This document shows positions 26,436 through 51,896 of a stretch of 61,938 nt of DNA, one piece after another. Under the pieces are notes generated by a model that ran no database searches, was not told the DNA's origin, and saw only the letters and a program-made list of their open reading frames with translations. Position numbers and translations under genes: made by a program. Source of the stretch: Hyphococcus sp. (GTDB taxonomy: Bacteria; Pseudomonadota; Alphaproteobacteria; Caulobacterales; Parvularculaceae); the NCBI GenBank assembly GCA_028285645.1, contig JANQOV010000089.1, forward strand, positions 1 through 61,938, written 5' to 3'. The first letter of the stretch is position 1; every line of letters begins with the position of its first letter.

Positions 26436-26511
26436 AGGGGTGTAGCTCAGTTGGTAGAGCATCGGTCTCCAAAACCGAGGGTCGGGGGTTCGAGTCCCTC
26501 CGCCCCTGCCA
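26436..26511 (+). tRNA. tRNA-Trp (CCA anticodon)
   Basis: A 76-nt tRNA with a 7-bp acceptor stem (AGGGGTG with CGCCCCT, one T-G pair), standard D arm, and anticodon stem TCGGT/ACCGA with loop CTCCAAA, giving anticodon CCA. The T arm is GGGGG-TTCGAGT-CCCTC and the CCA end is encoded at 26509-26511. In many alphaproteobacteria tRNA-Trp is followed by secE-nusG; here an S46 peptidase remnant starts directly at its 3' end. Confidence 0.97.
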
Positions 26512-33783: not shown

Positions 33784-33811
33784 TGACGTCAAATGCAAAA
33801 TTTCTGACGCG
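33784..33811 (+). promoter_or_regulatory. Direct-repeat operator, copy 1 (upstream of TonB receptor)
   Basis: TGACGTC at 33784-33790 and TGACGCG at 33805-33811 start exactly 21 bp apart, with AAATGCAAAA following the first half. A possible -10 (TATAGT, 33843-33848) lies 38 bp after the second half and has no good -35, as expected for an activator-dependent promoter driving the receptor gene. A lone half-site TGGCGTC (33673-33679) lies closer to the divergent ilvD. The rest of the 318-bp gap shows no gene. Confidence 0.6.
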
Positions 33812-33945: not shown

Positions 33946-36258
33946 ATGCTTTTGAAGCATCGTTTTTTAACTACAACTACGGCATTGGCGATGATCGCCG
34001 CAACAACTGCGCCCGTCTACGCTCAAGACGAGCAAGTTGGGGCTGACGCTGAAGAGCGTGACGTTATCTTCGTTACTGCAACCAAGCGCGAAGAGAGTCT
34101 TCAAGATATTTCCGTTGCCGTTTCCGTTGTTGATGGCGAGCGCCTTGATGATCTATCAATAAACACGCTCGACGAACTCACGTTTCTGGTGCCGACAGTT
34201 ATGGTGTCGGATGCGCAGGCCGCTACTAACTTGTTTATTCGAGGCGTTGGGTCCGGGCAAAACTACGGCTTCGAGCAATCAGTCGGGATCTTTATTGACG
34301 GCGTTCACTTCAGCCGCGGTCGCTCGGCACGCGCGCCATTCTTTGATGCGGAACGCGTTGAAGTGCTGAAAGGCCCGCAAAGTGTTCTCTTTGGTAAGAA
34401 CGTCGTCGCCGGTGCATTCAACATTACGACGCGCAAGCCGACTGACGAATGGGAGGGGAGCTTAACAGCCGGTTGGACGCCTAAATATAATGGCGAAGAA
34501 TTCACCGGGTTTTTGTCGGGGCCGCTCAGTGATACGCTCGGCATTCGCATTGCAGGGAAGTACAGCCAGATTGATGGCTATATTGAGAACACATTGCCAG
34601 GGGCCCCAAATCCCGGCGGGCGGACAGAATATATCATTCGCGGTACAATGCAGTGGGAACCGACAGAGAATTTTGTCGCGACGCTCAAAGCTGAAACATC
34701 GCAGCTAGAAGTTGAGGGCGGTTTACCCGTTACGCCGACATTGCTGGCGCCGGCTCATCTGGCGCTCGTACAGGCTGTCGACCCGCTCGCGGAAACCGAC
34801 AAAGACTATCAAACGTCGGCGCCGGGTACCGGCGATCCGTTCTTCGACGGGATGTTTAACAACACCAATACAGACAATTTCACTTTAACGCTCGACTGGG
34901 GCTTGGGCGATCATCAACTGACATCGGTGACAAGCTATGTCAGGTATGATACGCGCCAAAGGACAAACAACGATCATGTCAACTTGAACGTTGTATCCGG
35001 CCCTGAAGAGCACGAATTCGATTCTGTAGCGCAAGAGATTAGACTTGCGTCGCCGACAGGTGGATTTCTGGAGTATATTTTCGGCGCCTACTACGCCAAT
35101 GAGGACCTGAATACGGCGCGGATCGCGAACGTGGATATTAGCCTTTCGTCTCTTGGCGGGGTATTTGGCGTCGACAGGCTGGGCCGGAATCAACGTTTTG
35201 ATCAAGACCTTAGCACCTGGGCGATTTTCGGTGAGGCGACGCTCAATATTACCGACGACCTGCGCATAATCGCTGGCGCTCGCTATACGGAAGATAGCAA
35301 AATCGTCAATAAGCGCATGTTCTATTCTGACGTTGCCTTAGACGTTAATGACGCCGTGCCAGACCCAATTGTGTCGGCGGCGTTCAATGGGGTGTTGGGG
35401 TCGGAGCACGTGTACAATCGGATTGAAAGAGACACCAACGATTTCACGCCGGCCGTAAAACTAGAATATGACGTAAGCGACGACGTGCTGTTGTACGGTT
35501 CCTATACGCAAGGGTTTAAGGCAGGCGGTTTCGACGAGGACTATCTCTCGGACGTCATCGACGACTTTGAATATGAAGATGAGGAGGTGGAATCATTTGC
35601 AGGTGGCGCGAAGCTCACGCTTGCGGGCGGCGACGCTTACATCAATGCTGAGTTTTTCCATTCTGATTTCAAAAACCTGCAGGTATCTACCTTCTCGGTA
35701 TCGAGCTTCTTGGTTGGAAATGCAGCCGCAGCGAGAACGATGGGTATCGATATCGACGGACGCTGGGATGTGAATGAGAATTTAACCGTAGGCGGCGCCT
35801 TCGTTTGGTTAGACGCTGAGTACACAGACTACGAGCAAGGTCCGTGCGTGCTTGATGACGCCGGCGTAGAGATAGCAACATTTTGCGATTTGACAGGTGA
35901 GCAATTGCAATTTGCGCCTGAAACGTCAGGCAGCTTGTATGCTACTTATTATGCGCCGCTCGCGAGAGACTGGGCCTTGGAGTTTTATGGCGATCTGGTT
36001 TACTCAGACGACTTTGCCACTGCCGGCGACCTGGATCCCCTCAGCGTTCAAGATTCTTACGTCAAGCTCAATGCTACAGTTAGCTTGATCAAAGAGGACC
36101 GATTTCGGTTGTCCGTCATTGGCAAGAACTTGACGAACAAGTTGACCTCGCACCAGGCGAACGACATTCCACTAGCTGTGTTCTTTGGCGGCAAGGGCTT
36201 TGATAACTTTATCGATCCGCCGCGAATGATCACGATACAGGCGAATGTGAGCTTCTGA
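33946..36258 (+). CDS. TonB-dependent receptor
   Basis: A 770-residue outer-membrane active transporter. The signal peptide ends at VYAQ. A TonB-box-like DVIFVTATKREES follows near residue 40, then the plug domain (FIRGVGSGQNYG, VEVLKGPQSVLFGKN) and a 22-strand barrel ending in phenylalanine (TIQANVSF). Such receptors import large or scarce substrates using proton-motive force via TonB-ExbBD. The start has a strong GGGAGGGG. It is flanked by the direct-repeat operator and a perfect terminator, so it is its own transcription unit. No substrate can be deduced; its place suggests it imports the compound the island degrades. Confidence 0.95.
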   Translation: MLLKHRFLTTTTALAMIAATTAPVYAQDEQVGADAEERDVIFVTATKREESLQDISVAVSVVDGERLDDLSINTLDELTFLVPTVMVSDAQAATNLFIRGVGSGQNYGFEQSVGIFIDGVHFSRGRSARAPFFDAERVEVLKGPQSVLFGKNVVAGAFNITTRKPTDEWEGSLTAGWTPKYNGEEFTGFLSGPLSDTLGIRIAGKYSQIDGYIENTLPGAPNPGGRTEYIIRGTMQWEPTENFVATLKAETSQLEVEGGLPVTPTLLAPAHLALVQAVDPLAETDKDYQTSAPGTGDPFFDGMFNNTNTDNFTLTLDWGLGDHQLTSVTSYVRYDTRQRTNNDHVNLNVVSGPEEHEFDSVAQEIRLASPTGGFLEYIFGAYYANEDLNTARIANVDISLSSLGGVFGVDRLGRNQRFDQDLSTWAIFGEATLNITDDLRIIAGARYTEDSKIVNKRMFYSDVALDVNDAVPDPIVSAAFNGVLGSEHVYNRIERDTNDFTPAVKLEYDVSDDVLLYGSYTQGFKAGGFDEDYLSDVIDDFEYEDEEVESFAGGAKLTLAGGDAYINAEFFHSDFKNLQVSTFSVSSFLVGNAAAARTMGIDIDGRWDVNENLTVGGAFVWLDAEYTDYEQGPCVLDDAGVEIATFCDLTGEQLQFAPETSGSLYATYYAPLARDWALEFYGDLVYSDDFATAGDLDPLSVQDSYVKLNATVSLIKEDRFRLSVIGKNLTNKLTSHQANDIPLAVFFGGKGFDNFIDPPRMITIQANVSF

Positions 36259-36363: not shown

Positions 36364-37572
36364 CTAGTCTGAAATTCGAACAACCGCGTCGGGGCGTTTT
36401 TGAATGTCTGGCACAAGCTCAATGCCGAGGCCAGGAACATCAGGCGCCGTCACTTCGCCATTTTCTATGATTGGCATTGGCGCAGCGACATCCGTGTACC
36501 ATCCTGTGTAGTGCGCGCGAACGCATTCCTGTATGACAGCGTTGACGGCATTAAGAGACAAATGCACCGACGCCATCCAAACAACCGGGCCGGTGCAATC
36601 ATGAGGGGCGACCGGGAGACTATAAGCTTCAGCCATGCTGGCGATCTTTTTTGATTCTGTCAGACCGCCGGCCCATCCAATGTCCGGCATGATGAAGTCA
36701 GCCGCCCGTTGATCTAGCAAATCTCGAAATCCTGTGCGCCCTGCGAGAGTTTCGCTCGCACACACTGGGATATTCGAGTTGCGTCTAAATTCGGCAAGGT
36801 TTTCGAGACTATCCGCCTTGATTGGGTCTTCGATCCAATAGGGGTTGTAGTCTTCTAGAGCACGGGAAATCTTAATTGCAGCCGGTAATGTCCAAAGAGA
36901 GTGGCATTCGACCATTATGTCTATTTTGTCGCCCACAGCCTTTCGGATTTTTTCAAAGGGTTTAATAGCGGTCTTCAATTCCTCAGCAGTTATGTCGTTA
37001 CCGAGGCTGCGTTCAGCGGCGAAATCAAAGGGCCATATTTTCATCGCCGTAATGCCCTCGGATAGTAGGCTTTGCGCTAATTCGTCTGCGCGATTGAGGA
37101 ATGCATCAAGGTCTTCATAAGGCCCGAGAGATTCTTCCTTACCTAACCCCCAATTTGATGTCTTTTGTCCTTCTGCAGAACGAATATAGGTGTAACCTGC
37201 GCATGTGTTGTAAATGCGAATCGCGTCACGCGCTTTACCGCCCAAGAGATCGTAGACAGGTTGGCCGATCTGTTTTGCGTAAAGATCGGTAAGCGCTATG
37301 TCGATGGCAGAAAGGGCGCGCACTTCCGCGCCTGTGCTGCGAAATCCCAGATAGCCGTAGAGGTTTTTCCAATGGAGGTCTCTCTGACGGCAATCTTTGC
37401 CCAACAAATAGGGCGCAACCGTTGTATGAATGTGCGACTCGACCGCTTCGGCCCAAAGAAACGTTTCTCCAAGGCCAATATTGCCATCGTTTGAATGAAG
37501 TCTCACCCAGATTACGTTGGGGTAGGATTTAAGTCTAATGGTCTCGATTTTTTCGATTTTCGTTCGCGCCAT
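36364..37572 (-). CDS. Enolase-superfamily protein, mandelate racemase group (galactonate dehydratase-like)
   Basis: A 402-residue mandelate racemase/muconate lactonising enzyme-family protein. The capping domain covers about residues 1-120 and the barrel follows. Visible catalytic positions are K178 (MKIW), metal ligands E222, E248 and E274 at exact 26-residue spacing, and H324 in APHDC. A His two residues after the first ligand (VECHS) recalls D-galactonate dehydratase-like enzymes, so dehydration of a sugar acid is the best guess. It is transcribed away from the PQQ dehydrogenase gene across a 430-bp gap containing an operator copy. Confidence 0.87.
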   Translation of the reverse strand: MARTKIEKIETIRLKSYPNVIWVRLHSNDGNIGLGETFLWAEAVESHIHTTVAPYLLGKDCRQRDLHWKNLYGYLGFRSTGAEVRALSAIDIALTDLYAKQIGQPVYDLLGGKARDAIRIYNTCAGYTYIRSAEGQKTSNWGLGKEESLGPYEDLDAFLNRADELAQSLLSEGITAMKIWPFDFAAERSLGNDITAEELKTAIKPFEKIRKAVGDKIDIMVECHSLWTLPAAIKISRALEDYNPYWIEDPIKADSLENLAEFRRNSNIPVCASETLAGRTGFRDLLDQRAADFIMPDIGWAGGLTESKKIASMAEAYSLPVAPHDCTGPVVWMASVHLSLNAVNAVIQECVRAHYTGWYTDVAAPMPIIENGEVTAPDVPGLGIELVPDIQKRPDAVVRISD

Positions 37573-37723: not shown

Positions 37724-37751
37724 TGACGCCAAAAGCAAAAATGTTGTCACT
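37724..37751 (+). promoter_or_regulatory. Direct-repeat operator, copy 2 (racemase-like / PQQ dehydrogenase gap)
   Basis: TGACGCC at 37724-37730 and a weaker TGTCACT at 37745-37751 start 21 bp apart, with AAAAGCAAAAA between them, matching the A-rich centre of copies 1 and 3. It lies 152 bp upstream of the minus-strand racemase-like gene and 253 bp before the PQQ dehydrogenase start, so it could serve either. The rest of this 430-bp gap holds no gene I can support. Confidence 0.5.
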
Positions 37752-38004
37752 TATCGGACGACGCTTCTTCGCCTGATCGCTTTGTACGAGGCTTGCCTGG
37801 TTGCGCCGGAGTGTAGTTAAATCAATGTGATACTTGTTAGTTTGGCTATTTTAATAGGAATCTCTTGATGGCGCATGAGGTTGTTCCGAGTTTCCGCCCG
37901 CCTTCTTGCACTTATGGGCGGGGAGTTGCGATGAGGTCCGAGCGCAAGAAAGAGAATAAACACGACTACGTTTGCCAATTCGGCGCGCGCCAGGCGAGAG
38001 GCGT

Positions 38005-40248
38005 ATGATCGCATTGCGCGCCGCCGCGATTTTCGCACTTACAGCGCTTGGACTGTCTGCAAGCGCATGTGGCGAACGTACTGAACACGTTACGCCGTCA
38101 CAAGAACAGATATCTAACGATGAGGCGAGCGGCGAAGACGCAGCGTCGCCGGGCGAGGCTTCTGATCTAAAACCTGGCGACATTGATGACGCGCGCATTA
38201 TTGCTTACCAAAACGAGCCGGGATCGTGGCTGTCCCATGGTCAGGGTTATGAAGAACGGCGTTTCTCGGCGTTGACCGAGATTAATCGCGATACGGTCGG
38301 CGAGCTCGGTCTAGCTTGGTTCAAAAACACCGGGAGCAAACGCGCTCAAGAATCAACACCTATTGTTGTTGACGGCGTCATGTATTTCACCAGCACGTGG
38401 AGCCGCGTTTTTGCAATCGATGCTGCTACAGGTGAAACGCTTTGGCGCTACGATCCTGAAGTGCCCGGAGAGTGGGCGCGCAGGCTTTGCTGCGATGTCG
38501 TCAATAGGGGCGTATCGGTTTATCAGGGCCGCGTATATGTGGGTACGCTCGATGGACGACTAATTGCCCTTAACGCCGCGACCGGAGAACGCGTTTGGGA
38601 AGTCGACACATTGGTCGATCGAACGCGCTTTTATAGTATCACCGGTGCGCCGCGCGCGGCGAAAGGAAAGATCTTCATTGGCAATGGCGGCGCAGAGTTT
38701 GGCGTTCGCGGTTATGTGTCAGCCTATGATGCTGAGAGCGGAGAACTTGTCTGGCGGTTCTTCACCGTTCCGGGCAATCCGGAACTGCCGTTCGAACATC
38801 CAGAGCTGGAAATGGCTGCGGAAACGTGGAGTGGCGATAAATGGTGGGAGTATGGCGGTGGCGGTACGGTTTGGAACAGCATCGTATACGACCCGATGTT
38901 GGACCAACTTTATATAGGTGTTGGCAACGGTTCACCTTGGGCGCGGGAGATCCGTTCGCCTGGCGGCGGCGATAACTTGTTTCTTTCTTCTATCGTAGCG
39001 CTCAACCCCAACACAGGCCGGATGATTTGGCATTACCAGACAACGCCAGGAGAGAATTGGGACTATACAGCAACACAGGACATTGCACTTGCTGAACTCG
39101 AGATCGACGGCGCTGCCAGGGCCGTGTTGTTACAGGCGCCGAAGAATGGTTTTTTCTACGTCATAGATCGGACAAATGGGGAGTTGCTGCGCGCTCATCC
39201 TTATACAGAAGTAAATTGGGCGAGCCATGTCGACCTACAGACAGGGCGGCCCGCCGAGAACCCGGAATTGGACTATAGTAAGGACGCTAAGTGGGTGCTG
39301 CCCGGTTCGAGTGGCGGTCACAATTGGCAGCCGATGGCGACAGATATCGAAGCAGGCGTTGTCTATATACCAACGCAAGAAAGCCCATTGCTTTTTTCTC
39401 TTTCAGAATCCTGGAAGCAATCAAAAACCTATGATGTTGAAAAGGCGCGCTGGAATCCCGGATTGGCGTTGTCCGAGTTTCCGAAAATGACGCTGGAAAA
39501 CCTCGACAGCGCGCCGCCAAGCCGCGGTGTTCTGAAGGCCTTTGACCCGCTGACGGGCGACACAAAATGGGCGGTGGAGCAAAGCTATTACTGGAATGGC
39601 GGTGTTTTGGGGACAGCAGGCGGGCTTGTGTTTCAAGGCGACGCCCAAGGGCAATTGAACGCCTATGATAAGTCGAACGGCGACCTGCTTTGGCGTTTTG
39701 ACACCCACACATCAATACTTGCGCCGCCGGTCACTTACGCCGTTAACGGCGTACAATATCTTTCAATTCTCACTGGCGGCGGCGGCGCGGACCTGTTCGG
39801 CGGCGCCAATGCGACAGCGTCATTCAAATACGGCAATGACGGCCGCCTCCTAACGTTTAAGCTTGGCGGGACGGAGACCCTTCCGGCGCCGAAATTGCGG
39901 GGACAAGCCATTCCTGAGCAGGTCGGGGAGATTGCGACAGTGGCGGAAATCAGCGCGGGTGAGAAGAAATACAACGTATACTGTGCAGCCTGCCACGGCA
40001 TGTTCGCTCGTTCCGGCGGCTCTATTCCGGATCTGCGACTATCAGTAGAGGCGCGTCAAGAAGCCTTTGTTGAGATTGTGTTAGAAGGTTGGCTTGCCGG
40101 CAATGGAATGGCTGCTTTTGACGATATACTATCAAAGGCAGATGTAGAGAGAATACAGAGTTTTGTGCAAGCACGAGCGCGGGAAGACAAAGCTGTGGCG
40201 GCAGGGGAAAAAGACGAAGCCATACTAACTTGGATTAATGATGAATAA
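38005..40248 (+). CDS. PQQ-dependent alcohol dehydrogenase with C-terminal cytochrome c
   Basis: A 747-residue quinohemoprotein (type II ADH-like). The N-terminus looks like a lipoprotein signal with Cys in LSASACGE. An eight-bladed propeller follows, with the adjacent-cysteine pair RRLCCD and tryptophan-docking repeats. The catalytic Asp lies in NWDYTATQ; the residue two positions later is Thr, not the extra Asp of lanthanide-dependent XoxF-type enzymes, so a calcium cofactor is predicted. A C-terminal haem c domain carries CAACH (about 39989-40003). It would oxidise an alcohol in the periplasm and pass electrons to the respiratory chain. I chose the inner ATG because it gives a clean signal sequence after GAGAGG. 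PQQ synthesis genes are not in the window. Confidence 0.93.
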   Translation: MIALRAAAIFALTALGLSASACGERTEHVTPSQEQISNDEASGEDAASPGEASDLKPGDIDDARIIAYQNEPGSWLSHGQGYEERRFSALTEINRDTVGELGLAWFKNTGSKRAQESTPIVVDGVMYFTSTWSRVFAIDAATGETLWRYDPEVPGEWARRLCCDVVNRGVSVYQGRVYVGTLDGRLIALNAATGERVWEVDTLVDRTRFYSITGAPRAAKGKIFIGNGGAEFGVRGYVSAYDAESGELVWRFFTVPGNPELPFEHPELEMAAETWSGDKWWEYGGGGTVWNSIVYDPMLDQLYIGVGNGSPWAREIRSPGGGDNLFLSSIVALNPNTGRMIWHYQTTPGENWDYTATQDIALAELEIDGAARAVLLQAPKNGFFYVIDRTNGELLRAHPYTEVNWASHVDLQTGRPAENPELDYSKDAKWVLPGSSGGHNWQPMATDIEAGVVYIPTQESPLLFSLSESWKQSKTYDVEKARWNPGLALSEFPKMTLENLDSAPPSRGVLKAFDPLTGDTKWAVEQSYYWNGGVLGTAGGLVFQGDAQGQLNAYDKSNGDLLWRFDTHTSILAPPVTYAVNGVQYLSILTGGGGADLFGGANATASFKYGNDGRLLTFKLGGTETLPAPKLRGQAIPEQVGEIATVAEISAGEKKYNVYCAACHGMFARSGGSIPDLRLSVEARQEAFVEIVLEGWLAGNGMAAFDDILSKADVERIQSFVQARAREDKAVAAGEKDEAILTWINDE

Positions 40249-40329: not shown

Positions 40330-41457
40330 ATGAAAATTGATAGAGTGAATATCCATCGATTGCGAGTCCTCGAAACAATTGGCGATTTGGAGCTGGCGTG
40401 GAGTCCCGGCACGAAATTTACCTTTCAAACCGGGGGTGGCAGCTTCGTTGAAATTGGCGTCGATAACGGGCTTACTGGCATCGGTCCGGAAATTGATGAG
40501 CGTTTTTTACCCGCGCTGCGAGAGCTTTTGATCGGCGAGAACCCGCTTGATGTTGAGCGATTGAGCGCGATGCTCAGATATTATTTCCCGTCGGGAATGC
40601 ATTATCAACATATTGGCGGCGTCGACATTGCGTTGTGGGATCTGCTTGGAAAAGCATGTAACCAGCCTCTCTGTCAGGTTTGGGGTTCTACTGAGACCAA
40701 GGTCAAACCCTATGCAGCCATGGTTATGCTTTCGACGCCGGAGGAAAGGGCGGATATGGCCGTTCGGCTTCAAGAAGAAAACTGGCCGGCGTTAAAGCTG
40801 CGGCTGCATCATGAAGACATGCGCGAAGATATTCGAACGGTCGAGCTTGTACGCAAGGCTGTTGGCGATGACATGGACATCATGATCGACGCCAATCAGG
40901 CGCAATCCAAAGGCGAATGGCAACCCGGTGTGATATGGGATTATCGCCGTGCTTTGCATACAGCGCAGGCGCTAGAATCGCTTGGGTGTTATTGGCTTGA
41001 AGAGCCGCGACCTCGCTACGCCACGCAGGAATATGCGCGATTGTCGAGCAGCGTCGCAATCCCCATTGCAGGGGGCGAAAATCTCTCTGATCTGCACGAG
41101 TTCCGACAATTATGTGAAGCAAACGCTGTAAGCATTCTGCAGCCGGAATGTTTAGTTGTGAACGGAATAACAGCAATGCGTAAAATCGGCGCTCTAGCTG
41201 AGTTTTATGGCAAACAAGTAGTTCCCCATAATGGGTATGGAAAGCTGGGGTTGATCGCACATATGCACCTTGTGGCGAGTTGGTCCCATGCGCCCTATCT
41301 TGAAGTCATCCATGATCCCCCAATTGGCGATCACCGGCATTTCCTTTCGATTTTTGAAAATCCGCCGAGCTTTACTCCGGATGGGAACTTTGAATTACCA
41401 AAAGGGCCTGGGCTTGGCGTCGATATTAGGCGCGATCTGATCGATGATACGCTTTAG
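40330..41457 (+). CDS. Enolase-superfamily protein, mandelate racemase group (K-x-R type)
   Basis: A 375-residue member of the same superfamily but clearly different from the 36.4-kb and 46.1-kb genes. Catalytic candidates are K156 and R158 (ALKLRLHH), metal ligands D187 (IDANQ), E224 (WLEEP) and E250 (AGGEN), and H300 (VVPHNGYG). The K-x-R variant and PHNG end match uncharacterised acid-sugar dehydratase or racemase subgroups. It lies 81 nt after the PQQ dehydrogenase on the same strand with AAGGA before the ATG, so the two are probably one operon. Substrate unknown. Confidence 0.87.
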   Translation: MKIDRVNIHRLRVLETIGDLELAWSPGTKFTFQTGGGSFVEIGVDNGLTGIGPEIDERFLPALRELLIGENPLDVERLSAMLRYYFPSGMHYQHIGGVDIALWDLLGKACNQPLCQVWGSTETKVKPYAAMVMLSTPEERADMAVRLQEENWPALKLRLHHEDMREDIRTVELVRKAVGDDMDIMIDANQAQSKGEWQPGVIWDYRRALHTAQALESLGCYWLEEPRPRYATQEYARLSSSVAIPIAGGENLSDLHEFRQLCEANAVSILQPECLVVNGITAMRKIGALAEFYGKQVVPHNGYGKLGLIAHMHLVASWSHAPYLEVIHDPPIGDHRHFLSIFENPPSFTPDGNFELPKGPGLGVDIRRDLIDDTL

Positions 41458-41492: not shown

Positions 41493-42518
41493 CTAGAGAG
41501 CGCTTGCTTGACTGCTTTGTGCGCTCCGCCGAAATTCAGATGGCGATTTACCGCTTGTTTTGCGAAAGCTCCTGCTGAAGCTCGACACGCTGCAATAACA
41601 CAATAGAAAGCTGATCTCTTCAATCGATCGGTCGGAGTTCACAAGGTAGTGCTCGGCGCGAGATTGCCGAATCGTTTTTACAAGTTCGCCAAAAGTAGCT
41701 TGCGACTCGTTCCATAATCGCCGCTGAAGCGTTCGTCGAGACAGCGCCAAGCTCTTTGCCACATTATCGATATGTAAATCGCCGGCTTCCATCGACTTGA
41801 TGATTTGTGCGTTTACGATTCCAATAAAGGAATTGGACTTAACTTCTTGAAGACGCTTATCGAGTAGCGCTCGGCATACTTCATACACTTCCGGTTCGTA
41901 TGAAGGGTTTTTGATCGTGACGTTGTCGGTTGCAAATCGCAAGATAGTCCCGCCGCCGTCCTGAAATTTCGGAGCGATATTAAAATGAGCTGTCCATGGA
42001 GAGACATCCTTGGGAGCTTTGCGGCCTAAAACCAGATAACTGGGCCGCAAAACCGGATTTCCAAGGCTTTTGCAGATGTTTAAAAGAGCAGCGGCGACTG
42101 CATCTTTAATCTCTTCGGCGCCTGTGCCCGCACGACCTTGCCGCACTAGCTCCACATACTCATCGGTCTGGCGCAGACGCCATATCGCTACGTTTGAACC
42201 AATTCCGCTAAACTCAGCGTAGGTTTTCATTGCCGTCATCGCATCGCGACTGGCGTACATTGCAAAAGACAGCGGTCCAAAGGTGCTCGGTGCGATGTAT
42301 TTTGCGGCAACGAGACCGATTGCCGGTTCGTTCGTCAGCGCAGCCGCTCTTTTCCAAAGCCTGGAAATCTTGTCGTAGCCCAGCTGTGCGGTGCCGGGTG
42401 TTTCAAGGTCCCGACCTCGAATTTCATCGGCCAGCAGCAACTTAGAATCCACGCCGAACGCCTCAACCGCCTGAATGAGCGGTGCGAGCCAGCTTGCGCT
42501 CATCATATAAGTGGACAT
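41493..42518 (-). CDS. AraC-family transcriptional regulator
   Basis: A 341-residue regulator with an N-terminal effector domain of the type found in OruR/ArgR-like AraC proteins (often called arabinose-binding, residues about 20-200). It has a C-terminal double helix-turn-helix (NVAKSLALSRRTLQRRLWNE and EISFLLCYCSVSSFSRSFRKTSGKSPSEFRR). Such proteins bind direct repeats about 21 bp apart and activate nearby operons. Copy 3 of the repeat lies 107 bp upstream of its own start, in the gap it shares with the Zn-alcohol dehydrogenase. It is the only transcription factor in the island and the natural candidate to recognise all four operator copies. Confidence 0.93.
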   Translation of the reverse strand: MSTYMMSASWLAPLIQAVEAFGVDSKLLLADEIRGRDLETPGTAQLGYDKISRLWKRAAALTNEPAIGLVAAKYIAPSTFGPLSFAMYASRDAMTAMKTYAEFSGIGSNVAIWRLRQTDEYVELVRQGRAGTGAEEIKDAVAAALLNICKSLGNPVLRPSYLVLGRKAPKDVSPWTAHFNIAPKFQDGGGTILRFATDNVTIKNPSYEPEVYEVCRALLDKRLQEVKSNSFIGIVNAQIIKSMEAGDLHIDNVAKSLALSRRTLQRRLWNESQATFGELVKTIRQSRAEHYLVNSDRSIEEISFLLCYCSVSSFSRSFRKTSGKSPSEFRRSAQSSQASAL

Positions 42519-42624: not shown

Positions 42625-42652
42625 TGGCGTCAAATGTCAAAATGGTGGCGTC
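42625..42652 (+). promoter_or_regulatory. Direct-repeat operator, copy 3 (araC-like / Zn-ADH gap)
   Basis: Two perfect TGGCGTC copies at 42625-42631 and 42646-42652, starting exactly 21 bp apart. This is the best copy of the island motif and sits in the divergent gap between the AraC-type regulator and the Zn-alcohol dehydrogenase operon. A further half-site-like TGACGCC is at 42691-42697. A weak -10-like TAGTGT (42683-42688) is 37 bp after the second repeat, close to the 38 bp seen for copy 1. Confidence 0.7.
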
Positions 42653-42793: not shown

Positions 42794-43900
42794 ATGTCCG
42801 TCACGACGCTCGCCGCGGTGGCCGTGTCTCCTGACAAGCCATTTGAATTCCGCGAAATGGAGCTTTTGCCGCCTCGGGCTGACGAAATTCGCGTGAAGAT
42901 CGCAGCGACTGGAATTTGCCACACTGATGTAGCTGTTAAAGAGCAAGCGTTCGCATTGCCCTTGCCGATGGTGCTTGGCCATGAAGGTGCGGGCGTTGTC
43001 GAAGAAGTTGGCGATTCAGTCACGCATCTCAAAGTCGGCGATCATGTGGTTTTGTTCGGAGATTCATGTGGTCACTGCAAAAGCTGCAATAAAGGCGTCA
43101 TGTCCTATTGCGACGAGTTTGCCCCGCGCAATCTAACCGGGGAGCGGATGGATGGGTCGACATCGCTTGTTTGGAAGGGTGAGCCGGTACGCGGTCGCTT
43201 CGTCGGTCAATCATCATTCGCCACCCAATCCGTTGCGAGCAGTCGCGGCGCGGTAAAGATTCCCAATGACTTGCCCCTGGAACTCATGGGTCCGTTGGGC
43301 TGCGGTCTAACGACCGGAATGGGCACCGTTATGAACGCCCTGAAGCCGCCGCCTGGTTCCAGTATCGCTGTTTTCGGCGTAGGCACGGTTGGTTTGGCCG
43401 CCGTGATCGGCGCCAAATTCTCAGGCTGCGCGACAATCATCGCCATCGATGTGCATCCTCATCGTCTGGAAATGGCGGAGGCGCTGGGCGCAACGCATGT
43501 GATAAATGCAAAAAAAGAACCGGTCGTTGAGACGATAGAGACTATAACCGGCGGCGGCGCTGACTATTCGATTGAATGCACTGGCGTTCCGGAGGTGGTT
43601 TTGCAGGCGGTGAATTGCCTGGTTCCGCCCGGTTGGTGTGCGCAAGTTGGCGTTACGCCATCGGGAATAACCGCCCCGATCGAAATGGACAAAATTGTCT
43701 ATGGTCGGGGAATACGAGGCGTCGTCATGGGTGAGGCGAATGTGAGCAACTTCATACTCTACTTGGCGGAGTTATATCGGAGTGGCCGGTTGCCCTTTGA
43801 CCAGTTTGTTAAGTTCTATGACTTTCGCGACATAGACCAGGCTGTTCACGATAGCGCCGGCACCGGTGAAGTGATCAAGCCAATTCTGCGAATGTCGTGA
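42794..43900 (+). CDS. Zn-dependent alcohol dehydrogenase (aryl-alcohol dehydrogenase-like)
   Basis: A 368-residue medium-chain dehydrogenase. Catalytic zinc ligands are C42 (GICHTD), H63 (LGHEGAG) and a Cys in GPLGCGLTTG. The structural zinc is held by four cysteines at C92, C95, C98 and C106. The NAD fold shows VFGVGTVGLAAVIGAK. The segment GRFVGQSSFATQSVAS resembles benzyl/aryl-alcohol and geraniol dehydrogenases. It oxidises an alcohol to an aldehyde with NAD, possibly following or paralleling the PQQ enzyme. First gene of a tight four-gene operon (gaps 10-33 nt), with GGGAGG before the ATG. Confidence 0.93.
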   Translation: MSVTTLAAVAVSPDKPFEFREMELLPPRADEIRVKIAATGICHTDVAVKEQAFALPLPMVLGHEGAGVVEEVGDSVTHLKVGDHVVLFGDSCGHCKSCNKGVMSYCDEFAPRNLTGERMDGSTSLVWKGEPVRGRFVGQSSFATQSVASSRGAVKIPNDLPLELMGPLGCGLTTGMGTVMNALKPPPGSSIAVFGVGTVGLAAVIGAKFSGCATIIAIDVHPHRLEMAEALGATHVINAKKEPVVETIETITGGGADYSIECTGVPEVVLQAVNCLVPPGWCAQVGVTPSGITAPIEMDKIVYGRGIRGVVMGEANVSNFILYLAELYRSGRLPFDQFVKFYDFRDIDQAVHDSAGTGEVIKPILRMS

Positions 43901-43910
43901 GGCGAAATTG

Positions 43911-45173
43911 ATGCTCCCTAAGGCCTGGCGGCGTCGCTATAACATAGTGGCGCTGTCCTTTTTCTCTATATTCATTTGCTATCTCGATCGGGTGAACATC
44001 TCAGTCGCCATCATTCCGATGTCTGATGAAATGAATTGGACGCCGGAAAAGCAGGGGTTGGCGCTTTCGGCTTTTTTCATCGGATATATCTTTACGCAAA
44101 TATTAGGCGGGCGGCTAGCGGATAAATATGGCGCCAAAATTGTGCTCGCAGTTGGCGTCGTTGTTTGGTCCTTGGCAACGTTGCTTACGCCGCCAGCGGC
44201 GTTCATGGGCTTTGCTGTGCTTATTGCCATGCGGATCATCATGGGCGTCGGGGAAGGCGTTGCGCTGCCCGCGGTCTACAGTCTCTATGGTCGCTGGCTA
44301 CCGCAGGAAGAAAAGGCGCGCGCGATCGGCTTTACGTATTCAGCGATACCCCTTGGCAGCGTTTTAGCGCTCGTCGTGACGCCTTGGATCATCATTGCGT
44401 TTGGGTGGGAGTGGGCGTTTTATTCTTTCGGATTGCTCGGCGCCGTGTGGCTCTATTTTTGGATGACCATGGCGACATCGTATCCCGCAGACCATCCGAA
44501 AATCTCTCAAAGTGAGCTGGCCGAAATTCAAAAGGACGCGCCAAAGGAGGAAGAGGGCGGTTCGCCGCCCTGGCGCGCTCTTCTAACCGCTCGGGCTGTG
44601 TGGGCGATCATCATCGCGCATTTCTGCGCCAATTGGGGCACGTATGTTTTGCTGGCTTGGTTGCCCACTTACGTCAATCGGGGCCTCGGTGTTGACTTTG
44701 CATCAGCGGGCCTTCTTTCCGCCATTCCCTATGTAACAGCCTTTCTCGCCTTCAACGTTACTGGCGCGATCGCTGATCGATTAGTGAATGCAGGTTGGGA
44801 CTTAACCCGTGTGCGAAAAGTGATGCAAACAATCGGTTTTGGCGGGCCTGCACTCATGTTGCTGCTTGTTGGGTTTGTCGATTCCGCATACATCGCTATT
44901 GCGCTCATGGCGATCGGTAATATTTTCCTGGCGTTTTCAGCCGGCGGCTATCAAGTCAATCATCTCGACATCGCACCGCGTTATGCGGGTTTGCTGATGG
45001 GCATATCCAACACGGCCGGTACGATACCGGGTATCATCGGCGTGACGGTCAGCGGCTATATTCTGGCATGGACGGGTTCTTGGGCCGCGGTCTTTCAAAC
45101 CGCGGCGGCTGTTTATGTCGTCGGAATCATAGCGTTTGTCGTCTTGGGCACGGGAAAGCGAATTTTTGACTAA
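43911..45173 (+). CDS. MFS transporter, anion:cation symporter (ACS) type
   Basis: A 420-residue major facilitator with about 12 hydrophobic segments. The N-terminal CYLDRVNISVAIIPMSDE and GGRLADKYGAK are typical of the ACS family, which imports organic acids such as galactonate, glucarate and phthalate by proton symport. The central loop contains the usual SYPADHPKISQSELAEI. The chosen ATG follows GAGG by 8 nt; a TTG one codon upstream is less likely. Its neighbours (three acid-sugar-dehydratase-like enzymes) fit a carboxylate substrate, supporting import of a sugar acid or aromatic acid across the inner membrane. Confidence 0.93.
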   Translation: MLPKAWRRRYNIVALSFFSIFICYLDRVNISVAIIPMSDEMNWTPEKQGLALSAFFIGYIFTQILGGRLADKYGAKIVLAVGVVVWSLATLLTPPAAFMGFAVLIAMRIIMGVGEGVALPAVYSLYGRWLPQEEKARAIGFTYSAIPLGSVLALVVTPWIIIAFGWEWAFYSFGLLGAVWLYFWMTMATSYPADHPKISQSELAEIQKDAPKEEEGGSPPWRALLTARAVWAIIIAHFCANWGTYVLLAWLPTYVNRGLGVDFASAGLLSAIPYVTAFLAFNVTGAIADRLVNAGWDLTRVRKVMQTIGFGGPALMLLLVGFVDSAYIAIALMAIGNIFLAFSAGGYQVNHLDIAPRYAGLLMGISNTAGTIPGIIGVTVSGYILAWTGSWAAVFQTAAAVYVVGIIAFVVLGTGKRIFD

Positions 45174-45202
45174 ACACAGAAACTTCGATCATGGAGGACA
45201 CA

Positions 45203-46066
45203 ATGCTGGAATGGCGCATCGGTGACGTTAAGTTGACGGCAATTGTTGAAATGACAGTTTCGGGCAACAACGAGTTTGTGTTTCCCGTAGCGCACAAAGA
45301 ATTGTGCGCTCCGATCGAATGGCTGAAACCGCACTTCATGGATCATGAGGGCAATTTGATTTTCGCCGTGCAGGCTTTTGTCATCGATACAGGCAAACGC
45401 AAAATCCTGATTGATACCTGCGTCGGTAATGACAAAGAAACCGGCATTCCCGACTGGGATAATATGAGTACGCCGTTTCTGGAAGACCTAGAAAAGGCCG
45501 GGTATCCCGCTGCGTTGATAGATACAGTGTTTTGCACGCATCTTCATGTGGATCATGTGGGCTGGAACACGAGGTTAGAGAACGGGTCGTGGGTCCCGAC
45601 CTTTGCGAACGCTCGCTATCTTTTTGCAAGAGAAGAATGGGAGCATTGGTCCGCCAATGAAGATGACCCGGAATTCGCCCTCGTTATGAAACAATCGATT
45701 AAGCCGATTGTTGACGCTGGGCTCATGGACTTGGTGGAATGGGACCATGAAATCTGCCCGGAAGTTTCCTTCGAACCCACACCGGGCCACACGCCTGGGC
45801 ACACAAGCGTACTCATACGATCTAAGGGTGACGAAGCGCTCATTACCGGGGACTGCATGCATCATCCGGTGCAATTGACAAAACCGGACTGGGGATCAGC
45901 GGCGGATGTAGATGCGCCGCATGCTTTTGAGACGCGTAAGAAACTGTTCAGCAAATATGTCGATACGTCGACACTGATCGTTGGCACGCATTTTCCAGCG
46001 CCTACAGCGGGGCGCATTAAACCGCTTGATGAGCTTGGGTGCTATTGGCTCGACACGTCAATTTAG
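45203..46066 (+). CDS. MBL-fold metallo-hydrolase
   Basis: A 287-residue metallo-beta-lactamase-fold hydrolase. The dinuclear metal motif H-x-H-x-D-H is CTHLHVDHVGW, further ligands lie in TPGHTPGHTSV and ITGDCMHH, and the final His is in VGTHFPAP. Enzymes of this subgroup act on lactones, esters or phosphoesters; a lactonase step would fit a pathway in which an alcohol dehydrogenase makes a lactone and dehydratases use the acid, but this is inference. I chose the ATG at 45203, 5 nt after GGAGG; an in-frame ATG overlapping the GGAGG is at 45191. Confidence 0.88.
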   Translation: MLEWRIGDVKLTAIVEMTVSGNNEFVFPVAHKELCAPIEWLKPHFMDHEGNLIFAVQAFVIDTGKRKILIDTCVGNDKETGIPDWDNMSTPFLEDLEKAGYPAALIDTVFCTHLHVDHVGWNTRLENGSWVPTFANARYLFAREEWEHWSANEDDPEFALVMKQSIKPIVDAGLMDLVEWDHEICPEVSFEPTPGHTPGHTSVLIRSKGDEALITGDCMHHPVQLTKPDWGSAADVDAPHAFETRKKLFSKYVDTSTLIVGTHFPAPTAGRIKPLDELGCYWLDTSI

Positions 46067-46099: not shown

Positions 46100-47278
46100 A
46101 TGGCCAAGATCAAGTCTGTTGCGTTTACGGAGTTCAGCTTTCCGGTAGAGAATATCGGACTTGAAACCGCTGCGGCCGGCGTCGGCAACATGGCATATGT
46201 GAAGGGAGCGACTTTCAACGCGAAACGATTTGCGGTGAAGATCACAACGGATGATGGCGCCGCAGGCGAATATGTCGCTAACTGGGTTGGTACGCCTTCA
46301 ACCTACGCCCAGGCGACAATGCTCGCGCATCTCCTAATCGGACGTGATCCAGAACATCGTGAAGAGATTTACGACGACCTAAAACGCGAAGTGCGCGCCT
46401 ATGATCATATGGGGCATGGCGTATTGGATATCGCGCTTTGGGACCTTGCAGGCAAAATGAATAATATGTCCGTAAAGGCGATGCTGGGCGGTTATCGGGA
46501 TCGTTTGCCGACTTATGCGAGTACATATGGCGGGCAGGAGTCAGAAGGGGGGCTCAATTCTATCGAAGCTTTCGCGGACTACGCACAAGCATGCAAGGAA
46601 GCAGGCTTTCATGGGTTCAAGATTCACCCCTGGCTCGATGGCAATCTGGACCGTGAGATCGCCAATCTGTTCGGCGTTCGCGAACGGGTAGGAGATGCGT
46701 GGCGCATTATGGTTGATCCCGCATGTACGCTGCGCACATGGATGGATGCGCTGACTATGGGGCAAGCCTGCGATGAGGCGGGCTGCTATTGGTATGAAGA
46801 CCCTTATCGCGACGCTTCGGTGTCGGCGTACGGTCATCAACGCCTACGGGAAAGACTGAAGACGCCGCTTTTGATTAGCGAACATGTGCGCGGCCTAGAA
46901 CAAAAAGCATCATTCCTGCTTGCGGGCGGATGCGACATGATTCATGCGGATCCCGAATATGACATGGGGATAACCGGTGTGATGAAGCTCGCACATTTCT
47001 GCGAAGGGTTGGGCCTTGATTTACAGCTTCACGCCGTTGGTCCCGCGCATCGCCTATGCATTTCTGCAATTCGCAACACCATGCTTTATGAAATGGCGCT
47101 TATCGGTCCGAATATGCCAAACATTGTTGCGCCCGTTTATACCTGCGGATATTCCGACCAGCCGGCGGACATGGCGAAAGACGGCACCGTGCCGGTTCCT
47201 GATGGTCCGGGATTGGGCGTAGCCTACGATTGGGCGTTTATCTCAGCCAACAAAACGCGCGAAGACATCATCGAGTAA
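46100..47278 (+). CDS. Enolase-superfamily protein, mandelate racemase group (K-x-H type)
   Basis: The third superfamily member, 392 residues. Catalytic candidates are K174 with H176 (GFKIHPW), metal ligands D206 (MVDPA), E233 (WYEDP) and E261 (ISEHV), and H311 (QLHAVGPAH). The K-x-H arrangement differs from both other copies, and this protein ends with the usual VPVPDGPGLGV. It closes the ADH-MFS-MBL operon, 33 nt after the hydrolase. A dehydratase or epimerase on a hydroxy acid is likely; the exact reaction is unknown. Confidence 0.87.
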   Translation: MAKIKSVAFTEFSFPVENIGLETAAAGVGNMAYVKGATFNAKRFAVKITTDDGAAGEYVANWVGTPSTYAQATMLAHLLIGRDPEHREEIYDDLKREVRAYDHMGHGVLDIALWDLAGKMNNMSVKAMLGGYRDRLPTYASTYGGQESEGGLNSIEAFADYAQACKEAGFHGFKIHPWLDGNLDREIANLFGVRERVGDAWRIMVDPACTLRTWMDALTMGQACDEAGCYWYEDPYRDASVSAYGHQRLRERLKTPLLISEHVRGLEQKASFLLAGGCDMIHADPEYDMGITGVMKLAHFCEGLGLDLQLHAVGPAHRLCISAIRNTMLYEMALIGPNMPNIVAPVYTCGYSDQPADMAKDGTVPVPDGPGLGVAYDWAFISANKTREDIIE

Positions 47279-47290
47279 TTCCCTAGATTT

Positions 47291-50200
47291 TCAGGCGGCG
47301 CGCAATTTAGCAAGGAGCTGTTCCGCTCGCTGATCGGCTGCTTCTACCGCTTTTGCTTTAATCGGGCCGAACCCGCGGATATCTTCCGGTAACGACAATA
47401 GCGCGATCGCGATTGCGTGGTTTGACGGGTTTAGCGCTTCAAGCGTTTCGTCAATGCGTTGCTCATAATCACGGATCAAATGCCGTTCCATTTTTCGTTC
47501 TTCATTGTAGCCGAATACGTCAAACGGCGTTCCCCGCAGCCGGCGCATCCATGCGAGTATTCGAAACGCTTTGAGAATCCATGGCCCGAATTCGATTTTC
47601 TTTGCTTCGCCCGTTTCGGGATCAGGACGTGATAGAATCGGCGGCGCAAGATTAAACTTCAGCTTTGGCTCGCCATCGAATTGTTCGTTAAGGCCGGCAA
47701 GAAAGCTTGGCGCGCTATATAATCGCGCGACCTCATATTCGTCCTTGTAGGCTAGCAGTTTTGCGTAATTCTTTGCTGCTGTTTCGGCGAGCCCGCTGCA
47801 GCCCGGCGCCTTTTGTTGTTCCGCTTCCCTCACGCGTAAGACGGCCTTGTGATACTTGTCCGCATAAGCGGCGTTCTGATAGGCCGTCAGATGCGCCACG
47901 CGGTGTTCGACAATCTCATCAAACGTTTCAGGAAATGCTTCGCTGTTCTTGTGATGCGCCTCCAGTTGTTCTGCTATCAACTCCGGTTGATGCGCCGCCA
48001 GGCGGCCGACGGCGAGGGCATGCTGATTGAAGTCAACGGCGACACCGTTCAAAAAAATGGCGCGCTCGATTGACTCCAAGGAAATCGGCAGCAAGCCTTT
48101 TTGAAATGCGAAGCCAATGAGCAGGAAGTTAGCGCCAAGGACATCGCCGCAAAACACTTCTGCAAGTATTTTCGCGTCAACCAACTCGATATTATCTTCG
48201 GCGACGGACTGGCGGATTTGCGAGAGAATCTCGTCCTTTGGCGCGACCGCGTCGCGGTCGAGCTGAAAAGTCGCCGTCGGCGATACGCTTGAATTTGCAA
48301 CCAGCTTTGTGCGGCCATGACCCAGCGTCGTGGCTGAGTCCCCACTAGCAGCGGCGACAAGGTCAAATCCGAGCGCCAAATCTGCTTCTCGCCAAGCGAT
48401 GCCAGCGCCTTGGATTTGCTCCGGCTTCGCGGCAATCTTTAAGTGGCTATATACGGCGCCATTTTTTTGGGCGAGACCCGTCATATCGAAAACGGAACTG
48501 GCGCGCCCTTCAAGATGGGCGGCCATGCCCAACACCGCAGCGGCGGTCACAACGCCGGTGCCGCCAATTCCTGCAAACATAATGTTGAAACTTTCACGTT
48601 GGGCGGTGGCGGTTGGCGGCGGCAAGTCAAGGATCGTTGCAGCGTCGATGGACTTGGCTTCCGGCTTCTTGGGTTCCGCATCGTAAACGGTCACGAAAGA
48701 AGGACAAAAGCCGAGGGCGCAACTGTAATCCTTGTTGCAATTAAATTGATCGATCTTGCGTTTTCGGCCAAGCGGCGTCTCCAGCGGCAAGATGGACACG
48801 CAGTTCGCTTTGGTCGAGCAATCACCACACCCCTCGCATACGGCGTCGTTAATGTAGAGGCGCTTTTTGGGATTGGGAAACTGACCCTTTTTGCGCCGTC
48901 GGCGTTTCTCTGCTGCGCAGGTTTGTTCGTAAATAAGGAATGTGCATCCGGGCACGTCGCGCAATTCTTTTTGAACTGCATCTAACTCATCGCGGTGATA
49001 GATCACAACGCCGGGGGCTAAACCGCTGCGTGCATCATACTTTTCTGGGTCATCCGTTACGACAACACAGCGCGCGACGCCTTCATGCAAGACTTGGTAA
49101 GTAATGTCGCCGACAGAAAGCGGTCCATCCACCGGTTGTCCGCCGGTCATTGCGACGGCGTCATTATACAGGAGCTTGTAAGTAATATTCACTTTCGCAG
49201 CGATGGCGGCGCGAATAGAGAGTAAGCCTGAGTGATAGTATGTGCCATCGCCCATATTCTGAAAGATATGGTCCGTATGCGTGAATGGCGCGAGTCCAAT
49301 CCAGTTTGAGCCTTCTCCACCCATCTGGGTCGGAACAACCCTGTCAGGCCGGAAAAAAACTTCCATTGTAGCGCAACCGGTTCCCACCATGGCGCGGCTG
49401 CCTTCGGGTATTTTGGTGGAACGGTTATGCGGGCAACCAGAGCAGAAAAAAGGTATGCGGATGGCTGCTGGAGCGGAGGGCGCCGTTTCGGCGAGCTTTG
49501 CTGCCAGTTGCGCCATTTTTTCGTAAAGCGCGTCATCTGCAATGCCTAACGCCTTCGCGCGCCGGCCTATTCCGGCTGCAATGGTGAAGGGTTCAAGTTG
49601 ACCAGAAGGCGAAAGAAGCGGCGATCCGTCTGGATCGGCTTTACCGGACAAGGCGACACGCTGGGCGCGATTTACGATGAGCGTCGCGATCTGCGATTCA
49701 AGGAACGACTTCTTTTCCTCAACAACTAAAATTTCGCTTAAGCCTTCGGAGAATTGAAGGAGGCCTTGAGGCTCAAGCGGCCAAATGCATCCGACTTTGT
49801 AGACGGCGATGCCGATGTGGTTTGCTCGTTCGGAATCTATTCCCAGTAACGCCAGCGCTTGCAGAACATCGTGAAAGGATTTCCCCGAAGTGATAATTCC
49901 GAGGCGCGCTCCTTTAGCGCCAAACACGAGACGGTCAAGATCATTAGCCCTCACAAATTGCTGGACAAGCGGCAGACGGTGCTCCAACGCAATTCGTTCG
50001 TTTTCTATCCGACTACTGAGTGTGCCGCGGTAGTGTACGTCGACTCCGTTTTGGGAGCTTTCCGGCACAATGATGGAGTTCGCGCGCAGATCGATTTCGC
50101 ATGTTGCTGTCTGTTCAATCGTTTCGTTGACGCATTTAAGTCCCACCCACGCGCCGCTAAATCGTGATAAAGCCCACCCCAGTAGACCGAACTCGAAATA

Positions 50201-50740
50201 CTCATTGACTGATGCGGGATAGAGTGACGGAATCAATTGCGCTGACAACGCTTGCTCGCTTTGGTGCGCGACCGTTGACGATTTGCCGGGATGGTCGTCG
50301 CCATAGGCAAGCAGCACGCCGCCATTCGGGTGCGCGCCGGCGAAGTTGCCGTGTTTCAGGGCGTCCATCGCCCGGTCTACGCCGGGACCCTTACCATACC
50401 AAAGCGCGAATACGCCGTCATAGCGGTTATCGGACATTTCACTGAGCTGCTGGCTGCCGGCGACAGCGGTTGCAGCGAGTTCTTCATTGAGACCGGGTTG
50501 AAAAGTAATATGCGCCTCTTCCAGACGTTCCTTGATGCTCCACAGCGTCATATCCAGTCCGCCGATGGGTGAACCGCGGTAACCGGAGATAAAGCCGGCT
50601 GTATTTCGTCCTGTCGCCAAATCACGTTGGCGTTGCAAAATAGGCAGGCGGGAAAGAGCTTGCGTCCCGTTCACGAAAATGGAGCCTCTTTCGAGCTCGT
50701 ATTTATCGTCGAGAGTGACGTTGCGGATGTCTCCGTCCAT
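47291..50740 (-). CDS. Indolepyruvate ferredoxin oxidoreductase family protein, fused alpha-beta
   Basis: A 1149-residue single-chain 2-oxoacid:ferredoxin oxidoreductase of the aerobic proteobacterial type. The pyrimidine-binding half comes first (GYRGSPIGGLDMTLW, GYGDDHPGKSS), then the TPP half with CSGCPHNRST and YNDAVAMTGGQP. A ferredoxin-like 4Fe-4S region has CEGCGDC and nearby cysteines, and a C-terminal gamma domain starts IMFAGIGGTGVVTAAAVLG. It oxidatively decarboxylates aryl or branched 2-oxoacids to acyl-CoA. GAGG precedes its ATG. It has an operator copy about 70 bp upstream, tying it to the island, and converges on the third racemase-like gene. Confidence 0.93.
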   Translation of the reverse strand: MDGDIRNVTLDDKYELERGSIFVNGTQALSRLPILQRQRDLATGRNTAGFISGYRGSPIGGLDMTLWSIKERLEEAHITFQPGLNEELAATAVAGSQQLSEMSDNRYDGVFALWYGKGPGVDRAMDALKHGNFAGAHPNGGVLLAYGDDHPGKSSTVAHQSEQALSAQLIPSLYPASVNEYFEFGLLGWALSRFSGAWVGLKCVNETIEQTATCEIDLRANSIIVPESSQNGVDVHYRGTLSSRIENERIALEHRLPLVQQFVRANDLDRLVFGAKGARLGIITSGKSFHDVLQALALLGIDSERANHIGIAVYKVGCIWPLEPQGLLQFSEGLSEILVVEEKKSFLESQIATLIVNRAQRVALSGKADPDGSPLLSPSGQLEPFTIAAGIGRRAKALGIADDALYEKMAQLAAKLAETAPSAPAAIRIPFFCSGCPHNRSTKIPEGSRAMVGTGCATMEVFFRPDRVVPTQMGGEGSNWIGLAPFTHTDHIFQNMGDGTYYHSGLLSIRAAIAAKVNITYKLLYNDAVAMTGGQPVDGPLSVGDITYQVLHEGVARCVVVTDDPEKYDARSGLAPGVVIYHRDELDAVQKELRDVPGCTFLIYEQTCAAEKRRRRKKGQFPNPKKRLYINDAVCEGCGDCSTKANCVSILPLETPLGRKRKIDQFNCNKDYSCALGFCPSFVTVYDAEPKKPEAKSIDAATILDLPPPTATAQRESFNIMFAGIGGTGVVTAAAVLGMAAHLEGRASSVFDMTGLAQKNGAVYSHLKIAAKPEQIQGAGIAWREADLALGFDLVAAASGDSATTLGHGRTKLVANSSVSPTATFQLDRDAVAPKDEILSQIRQSVAEDNIELVDAKILAEVFCGDVLGANFLLIGFAFQKGLLPISLESIERAIFLNGVAVDFNQHALAVGRLAAHQPELIAEQLEAHHKNSEAFPETFDEIVEHRVAHLTAYQNAAYADKYHKAVLRVREAEQQKAPGCSGLAETAAKNYAKLLAYKDEYEVARLYSAPSFLAGLNEQFDGEPKLKFNLAPPILSRPDPETGEAKKIEFGPWILKAFRILAWMRRLRGTPFDVFGYNEERKMERHLIRDYEQRIDETLEALNPSNHAIAIALLSLPEDIRGFGPIKAKAVEAADQRAEQLLAKLRAA

Positions 50741-50810
50741 TGAAACCTCTGATAATGCAGGGGTTTATAATAAGATATGCCGCCTTTTTCGGTATGAAAA
50801 AAATGCGAGA

Positions 50811-50838
50811 TGGCGTCGGATGAAAACTTTCTGGCGCC
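50811..50838 (-). promoter_or_regulatory. Direct-repeat operator, copy 4 (upstream of indolepyruvate oxidoreductase)
   Basis: Read on the + strand, TGGCGTC (50811-50817) and TGGCGCC (50832-50838) start exactly 21 bp apart with GATGAAAACTTTC between, a near-perfect match to copies 1-3. The target gene is on the minus strand, 71 bp away, so the site is inverted relative to its gene. An AT-rich -10-like TATTAT lies between site and gene. The remaining gap up to 51159 shows nothing else I can support. Confidence 0.65.

Positions 50839-51819: not shown

Positions 51820-51896
<77 letters not shown>

Follow-up and report, generated by a model that had tools for sequence, protein, structure and literature searches.

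The indolepyruvate:ferredoxin oxidoreductase (IOR) family includes EdcC, an enzyme that acts on a non-amino-acid 2-oxoacid (PMC7793797). EdcC belongs to the estrogen 4,5-seco degradation pathway of Novosphingobium tardaugens and Sphingomonas sp. KC8; growth on estradiol is normal only with EdcC, whose in vivo target is the ring-A meta-cleavage product (PMC7793797, PMC12507874). Tandem operators of AraC-type regulators are likewise described: ARG boxes have the form TGTCGCN6GNAA and lie in tandem, 5 bp apart (PMC10963909), and the footprint of the class I activator CdhR contains GGTCGC in direct repeats with a 15-bp spacer (PMC5806209). Recruitment of the IOR family to other 2-oxoacids and tandem AraC boxes are thus already known. 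Here, a 61,938-nucleotide stretch of Hyphococcus sp. DNA (contig JANQOV010000089.1, referred to as the window) was analyzed. It carries a gene for a fused IOR-family protein together with an island of putative catabolic genes. We consider it reasonably probable that this IOR is part of an AraC regulon, in which it would turn a dehydratase-made 2-oxoacid into an acyl-coenzyme A (acyl-CoA).

A shared operator upstream of the IOR gene

An unprompted repeat search of the window returned a 26-mer family with four members, at 33784, 37724, 42625 and 50811, all within a 17-kb stretch. Three of them occupy divergent promoter regions: 33784..33809 (+ strand) lies between genes for an IlvD-type dehydratase (-) and a TonB-dependent receptor (+), 37724..37749 (+ strand) between the enolase-superfamily gene ENO1 (-) and a pyrroloquinoline quinone (PQQ)-dependent dehydrogenase gene (+), and 42625..42650 (+ strand) between an AraC-family regulator gene (-) and a Zn-dependent alcohol dehydrogenase gene (+). 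The repeat family, a leave-one-out matrix and a genome scan identify all three. The fourth copy, 50811..50836 (+ strand), lies before the IOR gene. The original prediction had placed an almost perfect operator 71 bp upstream of the IOR start. The position stood, with 70 bases separating the site from the ATG at 50740, but "almost perfect" was an overstatement because the copy shares 77% identity with the reference copy of the 26-mer family and differs from the three-site consensus at 4/26 positions (counted by hand from the printed sites).

An IUPAC consensus, derived with all four sites included, was matched with 0 or 1 mismatch at four sites in the 3.55-Mb genome, and these were exactly the four operators of the window. 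Looser matches comprised 13 sites with 2 mismatches, and at up to 3 mismatches there were 114 sites, compared with 42 for the reversed pattern. Since the consensus had been drawn from the sites themselves, a leave-one-out test was added, in which a weight matrix built from three sites scored the held-out fourth among 123,826 window positions. Whichever site was held out, it came fourth in the window, right behind its three training sites. When held out, the 50811 site scored 20.2 bits, compared with 14.5 bits for the best non-site in the window, and had 0 equal-or-better matches in one simulated 3.55-Mb genome with dinucleotide frequencies taken from the window. The weakest copy was not the IOR site but the one at 37724 (18.5 bits, 3 matches in the simulated genome). 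The operator family is real, beyond chance.

The operators are built from a half-site pattern, TGRCGYC..WGNAA, that is repeated in tandem at a 21-bp period. Each of the four operators has a second half-site offset by 21 bp from the first, with 7 to 10 of 15 bases identical. Before the IOR gene, the half-sites at 50811-50825 and 50832-50846 (TGGCGTCGGATGAAA and TGGCGCCTGTGAGAA) agree at 9/15 bases, and the repeat runs beyond the 26-mer. The 42625 operator has a strong second half-site (42646-42660) and a partial third at 42667, and it sits 106 bases before the start of the AraC-family gene (41493..42518, - strand; PF12833 and PF12625). We infer from sequence that the product of this gene, the presumed operator binder, may recognize all four operators. 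Its nearest NCBIfam models (QhpR, CypR and GliR) all scored under cut-off, and it had no match at an E value of ≤1e-40 in 397 other genomes. The extra half-sites between the regulator and alcohol dehydrogenase genes (42646-42671), which keep the 21-bp period, would also allow for autoregulation of the AraC-family gene.

Rightward of the 50811 operator, no gene was recognized up to a tRNA-Met gene, which makes the IOR gene, the only recognizable gene within about 1 kb, the likely target. The interval holds a 137-residue open stretch (51160-51573, - strand) with no Pfam match. Because the operator copies are real and the IOR gene is the sole recognizable gene nearby, joint AraC-type control of the IOR with the island genes is likely. 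Such joint control with dehydrogenases and dehydratases had been predicted, and at the level of sequence it was borne out by the repeat family, the genome scan, the leave-one-out ranks and the tandem period.

The IOR and its island

The IOR gene (47291..50740, - strand) encodes a fused protein of 1149 amino acids with PF01558 and DUF6537 domains. The protein matched NCBIfam NF009589 (PRK13030) with 1525.5 bits, against a cut-off of 816, over residues 6-1147. The thiamine pyrophosphate motif is present (GDGT at 497, YND at 525), 11 cysteines are conserved in 68/68 aligned homologues, and the protein departs from only 3/186 near-invariant columns of that alignment. Judged by these features the enzyme is intact; no solved structure matches it by sequence. 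Close relatives in a scan of the genome collection reached 40-51% identity at best, and a second IOR in the same genome, on contig C21 (21418-24804), is about 49-50% identical to it. A full-length fused IOR (a single unbroken match of 800 residues or more) was present in 8/27 other genomes of the genus, so the family is accessory there. Aerobic Proteobacteria as a whole commonly have fused IORs: among 349 sampled Pseudomonadota genomes (this one included), 102 have one. In a 68-sequence tree, the island IOR grouped neither with the usual IOR of the genus nor with the C21 copy but with two others, one from a Sphingopyxis macrogoltabida plasmid and one betaproteobacterial (supports of 0.98 and 0.99). 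The plasmid gene lies among Rieske, VOC and acyl-CoA genes in an aromatic-degradation-like cluster with ring-cleavage genes, and the betaproteobacterial locus has homologues of enoyl-CoA hydratase and short-chain dehydrogenase (SDR) and, by eye, an acyl-CoA dehydrogenase. The island IOR is an accessory paralogue, and the tree places it together with catabolic copies carried on plasmids. The premise of a usual role in aromatic amino acid breakdown fits poorly with this sporadic distribution and with a copy that stands apart from that of the genus and next to the Sphingopyxis plasmid copy.

The accessory region around the IOR gene spans 25 kb and 15 recognized genes, between tRNA-Trp (26436..26511, + strand) on the left and tRNA-Met (51820..51896, - strand) on the right. 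Gene families were assigned by scanning the 15 island proteins, from lists of open reading frames above 150-170 amino acids. On the - strand, a PRK12448-type dihydroxy-acid dehydratase (IlvD; 31786..33627; 990 bits, cut-off 710) is followed by an SDR (31003..31752; family search), a DUF3604 protein (29068..30972; Pfam), a PPIC-type peptidyl-prolyl isomerase (28111..29016; Pfam) and finally an enoyl-CoA hydratase (27226..28026; NF006008, 392 bits, cut-off 313). With gaps of 33, 30, 51 and 84 bases, these five genes look like one operon; the DUF3604 and isomerase genes (28111-30972) lie inside it. The TonB-dependent receptor gene (33946..36258, + strand; Pfam) is followed by ENO1 (36364..37572, - strand), whose acid-sugar dehydratase-like product has 2pod as its nearest solved structure. 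The PQQ-dependent alcohol dehydrogenase (37972..40248, + strand) carries a cytochrome c domain and scored 613 bits for TIGR03075 (cut-off 480). A second enolase-superfamily gene, ENO2 (40330..41457, + strand), is nearest, among solved proteins, to talarate/galactarate dehydratase. Family searches assigned a Zn-dependent alcohol dehydrogenase (42794..43900), a sugar-acid/anion-type transporter of the major facilitator superfamily (MFS; 43908..45173), a lactonase-like hydrolase of the metallo-beta-lactamase (MBL) fold (45191..46066) and a third enolase-superfamily protein, ENO3 (46100..47278), all on the + strand, so that ENO3 is convergent with the IOR gene.

The window is contig C43; the genome comprises 3.55 Mb in 163 contigs and is 86.6% complete. 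A block of N-formylglutamate amidohydrolase, YbdK and tRNA-Met was kept in 12/12 relatives fetched (of 18 with YbdK), and no IOR was found in the YbdK-region stretches of those 12 (5.5-19.9 kb, with one extended by 14.1 kb). Inheritance of the IOR together with its flank was rejected on these counts. In one relative, G008, both flanks are on a single contig, 29 kb apart, with zero island genes between them. By these comparisons, the tRNA-Trp to tRNA-Met region is a variable site and the IOR gene is part of the insert. The scan of the 15 island proteins gave no integrase family. The G+C content of the island (0.526) differs weakly from that of the flanks (0.550 and 0.551), and foreign base composition was not relied on. 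ENO3 occurs in 1/299 genomes of the order, this one only, and in 17/385 genomes of the class, this one included; the loci fetched around the ENO3 matches have no cluster in common with the island, and the idea that the island is conserved elsewhere was rejected.

IlvD-IOR pairing and the proposed pathway

IlvD and enolase-superfamily acid-sugar dehydratases generally give 2-oxoacids. By analogy, the four island dehydratases (IlvD and ENO1-3) should be 2-oxoacid formers, and the IOR is the only island enzyme whose family consumes 2-oxoacids, yielding acyl-CoA and CO2. The 15 island proteins include no recognized family of aldolases, kinases or decarboxylases; no search for aldolases extended to the rest of the genome.

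A PF00920 profile detected three IlvD/EDD proteins in the genome: the island protein, one on C21 and one on contig C154. The C154 protein passes two dihydroxy-acid dehydratase (DHAD) cut-offs and, by these scores, is able to cover biosynthesis. Each of the remaining two is linked to an IOR, the island IlvD via the operator and the C21 IlvD by contiguity, in a one-strand series of TonB, aldo/keto reductase, hydrolase, IlvD, SDR and IOR genes. The C21 IlvD is 61.6% identical to the island IlvD and scored 1080 bits for PRK12448 (cut-off 710). This second IlvD-SDR-IOR locus suggests a link from dehydratase through 2-oxoacid to CoA ester. The C21 locus (L150:337-12207) includes a LysR gene, and inspection by eye of that contig also showed genes resembling hydantoinase/oxoprolinase and dipeptide epimerase, together with several SDRs. 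The locus has no strong operator copy, the best (15.0 bits) being inside the LysR gene.

Among the 349 Pseudomonadota genomes, with up to three IlvD candidates scored per genome, a PRK12448-type IlvD was present at an E value of ≤1e-190 in 251. Read from that listing, only this genome and G846 have two. The extra IlvD of G846 starts 88 bases after an IOR gene on the same strand, an arrangement found in 1/348 other genomes; a spare IlvD accompanies an IOR in both genomes with two PRK12448-type IlvDs. In G846 (contig C59; L179:14848-18435 and L180:586-7597), the pair is followed by genes that by eye are methylene-tetrahydrofolate-reductase-like and corrinoid-methyltransferase-like, neighbors that would point to a methoxylated substrate being demethylated. 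At columns where eight single-copy IlvDs are invariant, the three IOR-linked IlvDs have replacements in common (e.g., K71R, V307T and H321F/Y); of 371 such columns, each of the three differs at 36-66, and the island IlvD at 66. Plasmids of Tistrella, Paracoccus and Skermanella also carry extra IlvDs, which had no IOR within 9-10 kb among the genes listed.

The earlier proposal that dehydratases feed CoA metabolism through a 2-oxoacid found support in the C21 locus, in the adjacent IlvD-IOR pair of G846, in four dehydratases without an aldolase in the island, and in the enoyl-CoA hydratase that ends the IlvD operon. We infer AraC binding and activation, the order of reactions and the substrate as follows. 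In response to an island substrate, the AraC-family protein would bind the tandem 21-bp-period operators at four promoters and switch on all island functions, the IOR included, together. Uptake would involve the TonB receptor and the MFS transporter, oxidation the PQQ and Zn dehydrogenases, lactone opening the MBL hydrolase, and dehydration IlvD and the three enolase-superfamily enzymes. The IOR, as a second, specialized 2-oxoacid:ferredoxin oxidoreductase, would remove CO2 from the dehydratase product to give an acyl-CoA, which the enoyl-CoA hydratase would process further. A more specific version has a slim chance of being correct: a CoA-dependent, aldolase-free sugar-acid route in which the IOR decarboxylates a 2-keto-3-deoxy acid directly to a 3-hydroxyacyl-CoA. 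The loss of C1 would move the 4-hydroxyl to position 3 of the acyl-CoA, and 3-hydroxyacyl-CoA would be the natural substrate of the island's enoyl-CoA hydratase and of an SDR, so that sugar acids would enter beta-oxidation rather than aldol cleavage.

Several observations weigh against a dehydratase-fed IOR under AraC control. All four operators are oriented alike on the + strand, and the one at the IOR gene is thus inverted relative to its gene, unlike those at the TonB, PQQ and alcohol dehydrogenase promoters; AraC-type activators are often sensitive to site orientation. No clear sigma-70 promoter or consensus match was found upstream of the IOR gene, although an activator-dependent promoter can do without the sigma-70 consensus. 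Most sampled IORs have no nearby IlvD among the places listed, and two IlvD-IOR cases are few. The C21 and G846 IlvDs group together (91% ultrafast bootstrap) with the island IlvD outside, so a single clade of IOR-linked IlvDs is unsupported, and the island IOR has closer relatives than the C21 and G846 IORs. Since neither island protein groups with its C21 and G846 counterparts, either the two genes were brought together independently or the trees lack resolution.

Doubt about the regulatory assignment centers on whether 50811 is a true AraC site that does not control the IOR but serves a lost or unannotated rightward gene, looping or a decoy function, with the IOR expressed constitutively. 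The site has the same orientation as at the rightward promoters and, about 3.5 kb past the other cluster genes, could conceivably serve looping, but rightward there are only the 137-residue - strand stretch and tRNA-Met, while the IOR gene starts 70 bases leftward; we judge this explanation improbable. Alternatively, the IOR could be co-regulated but act on branched-chain 2-oxoacids, with IlvD making 2-ketoisovalerate-like acids and the IOR making isobutyryl-CoA-like esters for the enoyl-CoA hydratase. The island and C21 IlvDs have the scores of true DHADs, and in G846 a gene that by eye is Lrp/AsnC-like lies divergently before the IOR-IlvD pair. However, the lactonase-like MBL hydrolase, the PQQ dehydrogenase and three acid-sugar-type enolase-superfamily enzymes are ill-suited to a plain branched-chain route, which makes that substrate class rather unlikely. 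An aryl 2-oxoacid had been suggested from the start, and the family name of the IOR, its nearest tree neighbor among Rieske and ring-cleavage genes, and the EdcC precedent would agree with conversion of an arylpyruvate, from arylglycerol-type substrates, to arylacetyl-CoA. We find this very doubtful, given that the island has no ring-cleavage or ring-hydroxylating gene among its 15 scanned proteins and that no PaaA or PaaC protein was found in the 86.6%-complete genome, although about 13% of it may be missing and other routes exist.

To our knowledge, few fused IORs, which are named for aromatic amino acid breakdown, have tested substrates. If the IOR is indeed fed by dehydratases under AraC control, the recurring IlvD-IOR pairing would give this IOR branch a concrete substrate class and indicate a possible point at which dihydroxy or sugar-like acids enter CoA metabolism, and the AraC boxes would define a clean regulon.

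Comparison with described systems

In the literature searched, which mostly excluded subscription journals, no catabolic module of IlvD or another dehydratase with an IOR is described. The island resembles IOR clusters on rhizobial plasmids (L077, L254 and L255) in having an accessory IOR with an enoyl-CoA hydratase nearby; those clusters additionally carry a CoA ligase or AMP-binding protein. L254 and L255 differ from the island in that a gene for a flavin adenine dinucleotide (FAD)-binding oxidoreductase precedes the IOR gene, under GntR-type regulators, an arrangement that may represent a route from 2-hydroxyacid to acyl-CoA. L077 is similar without the FAD-binding gene. The operators share with those of ArgR, CdhR and GbdR a TGnCGy-like half-site, a tandem direct repeat, a 21-bp period, an AraC-type helix-turn-helix and a regulator divergent from a catabolic gene. 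The island half-site (TGRCGYCNNAWGNAA) is shorter than the ArgR, CdhR and GbdR boxes, and the regulator has a PF12625 N-terminal domain, compared with the GATase-1-like domain described for CdhR and GbdR (PMC5806209).

In the EdcC system, too, a fused IOR-family enzyme has joined a catabolic cluster that includes a TonB receptor. There, a non-amino-acid 2-oxoacid undergoes oxidative decarboxylation, and enoyl-CoA hydratase steps act after the CoA ester has formed, as proposed for the island. Unlike that system, the island has dehydratases instead of a P450 and a ring-cleavage dioxygenase, and an AraC-type regulator; no family of the EdcC-type partners (P450 estrone hydroxylase and extradiol 4,5-dioxygenase) was found among the 15 island proteins. 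Non-phosphorylative sugar-acid pathways end in aldolase or dehydrogenase steps. The island is like these pathways (e.g., that of SAR202 [PMC10444878]) in pairing mandelate-racemase-type dehydratases with dehydrogenases, but differs from them in that the sole 2-oxoacid-consuming enzyme seen under the island operator is the IOR.

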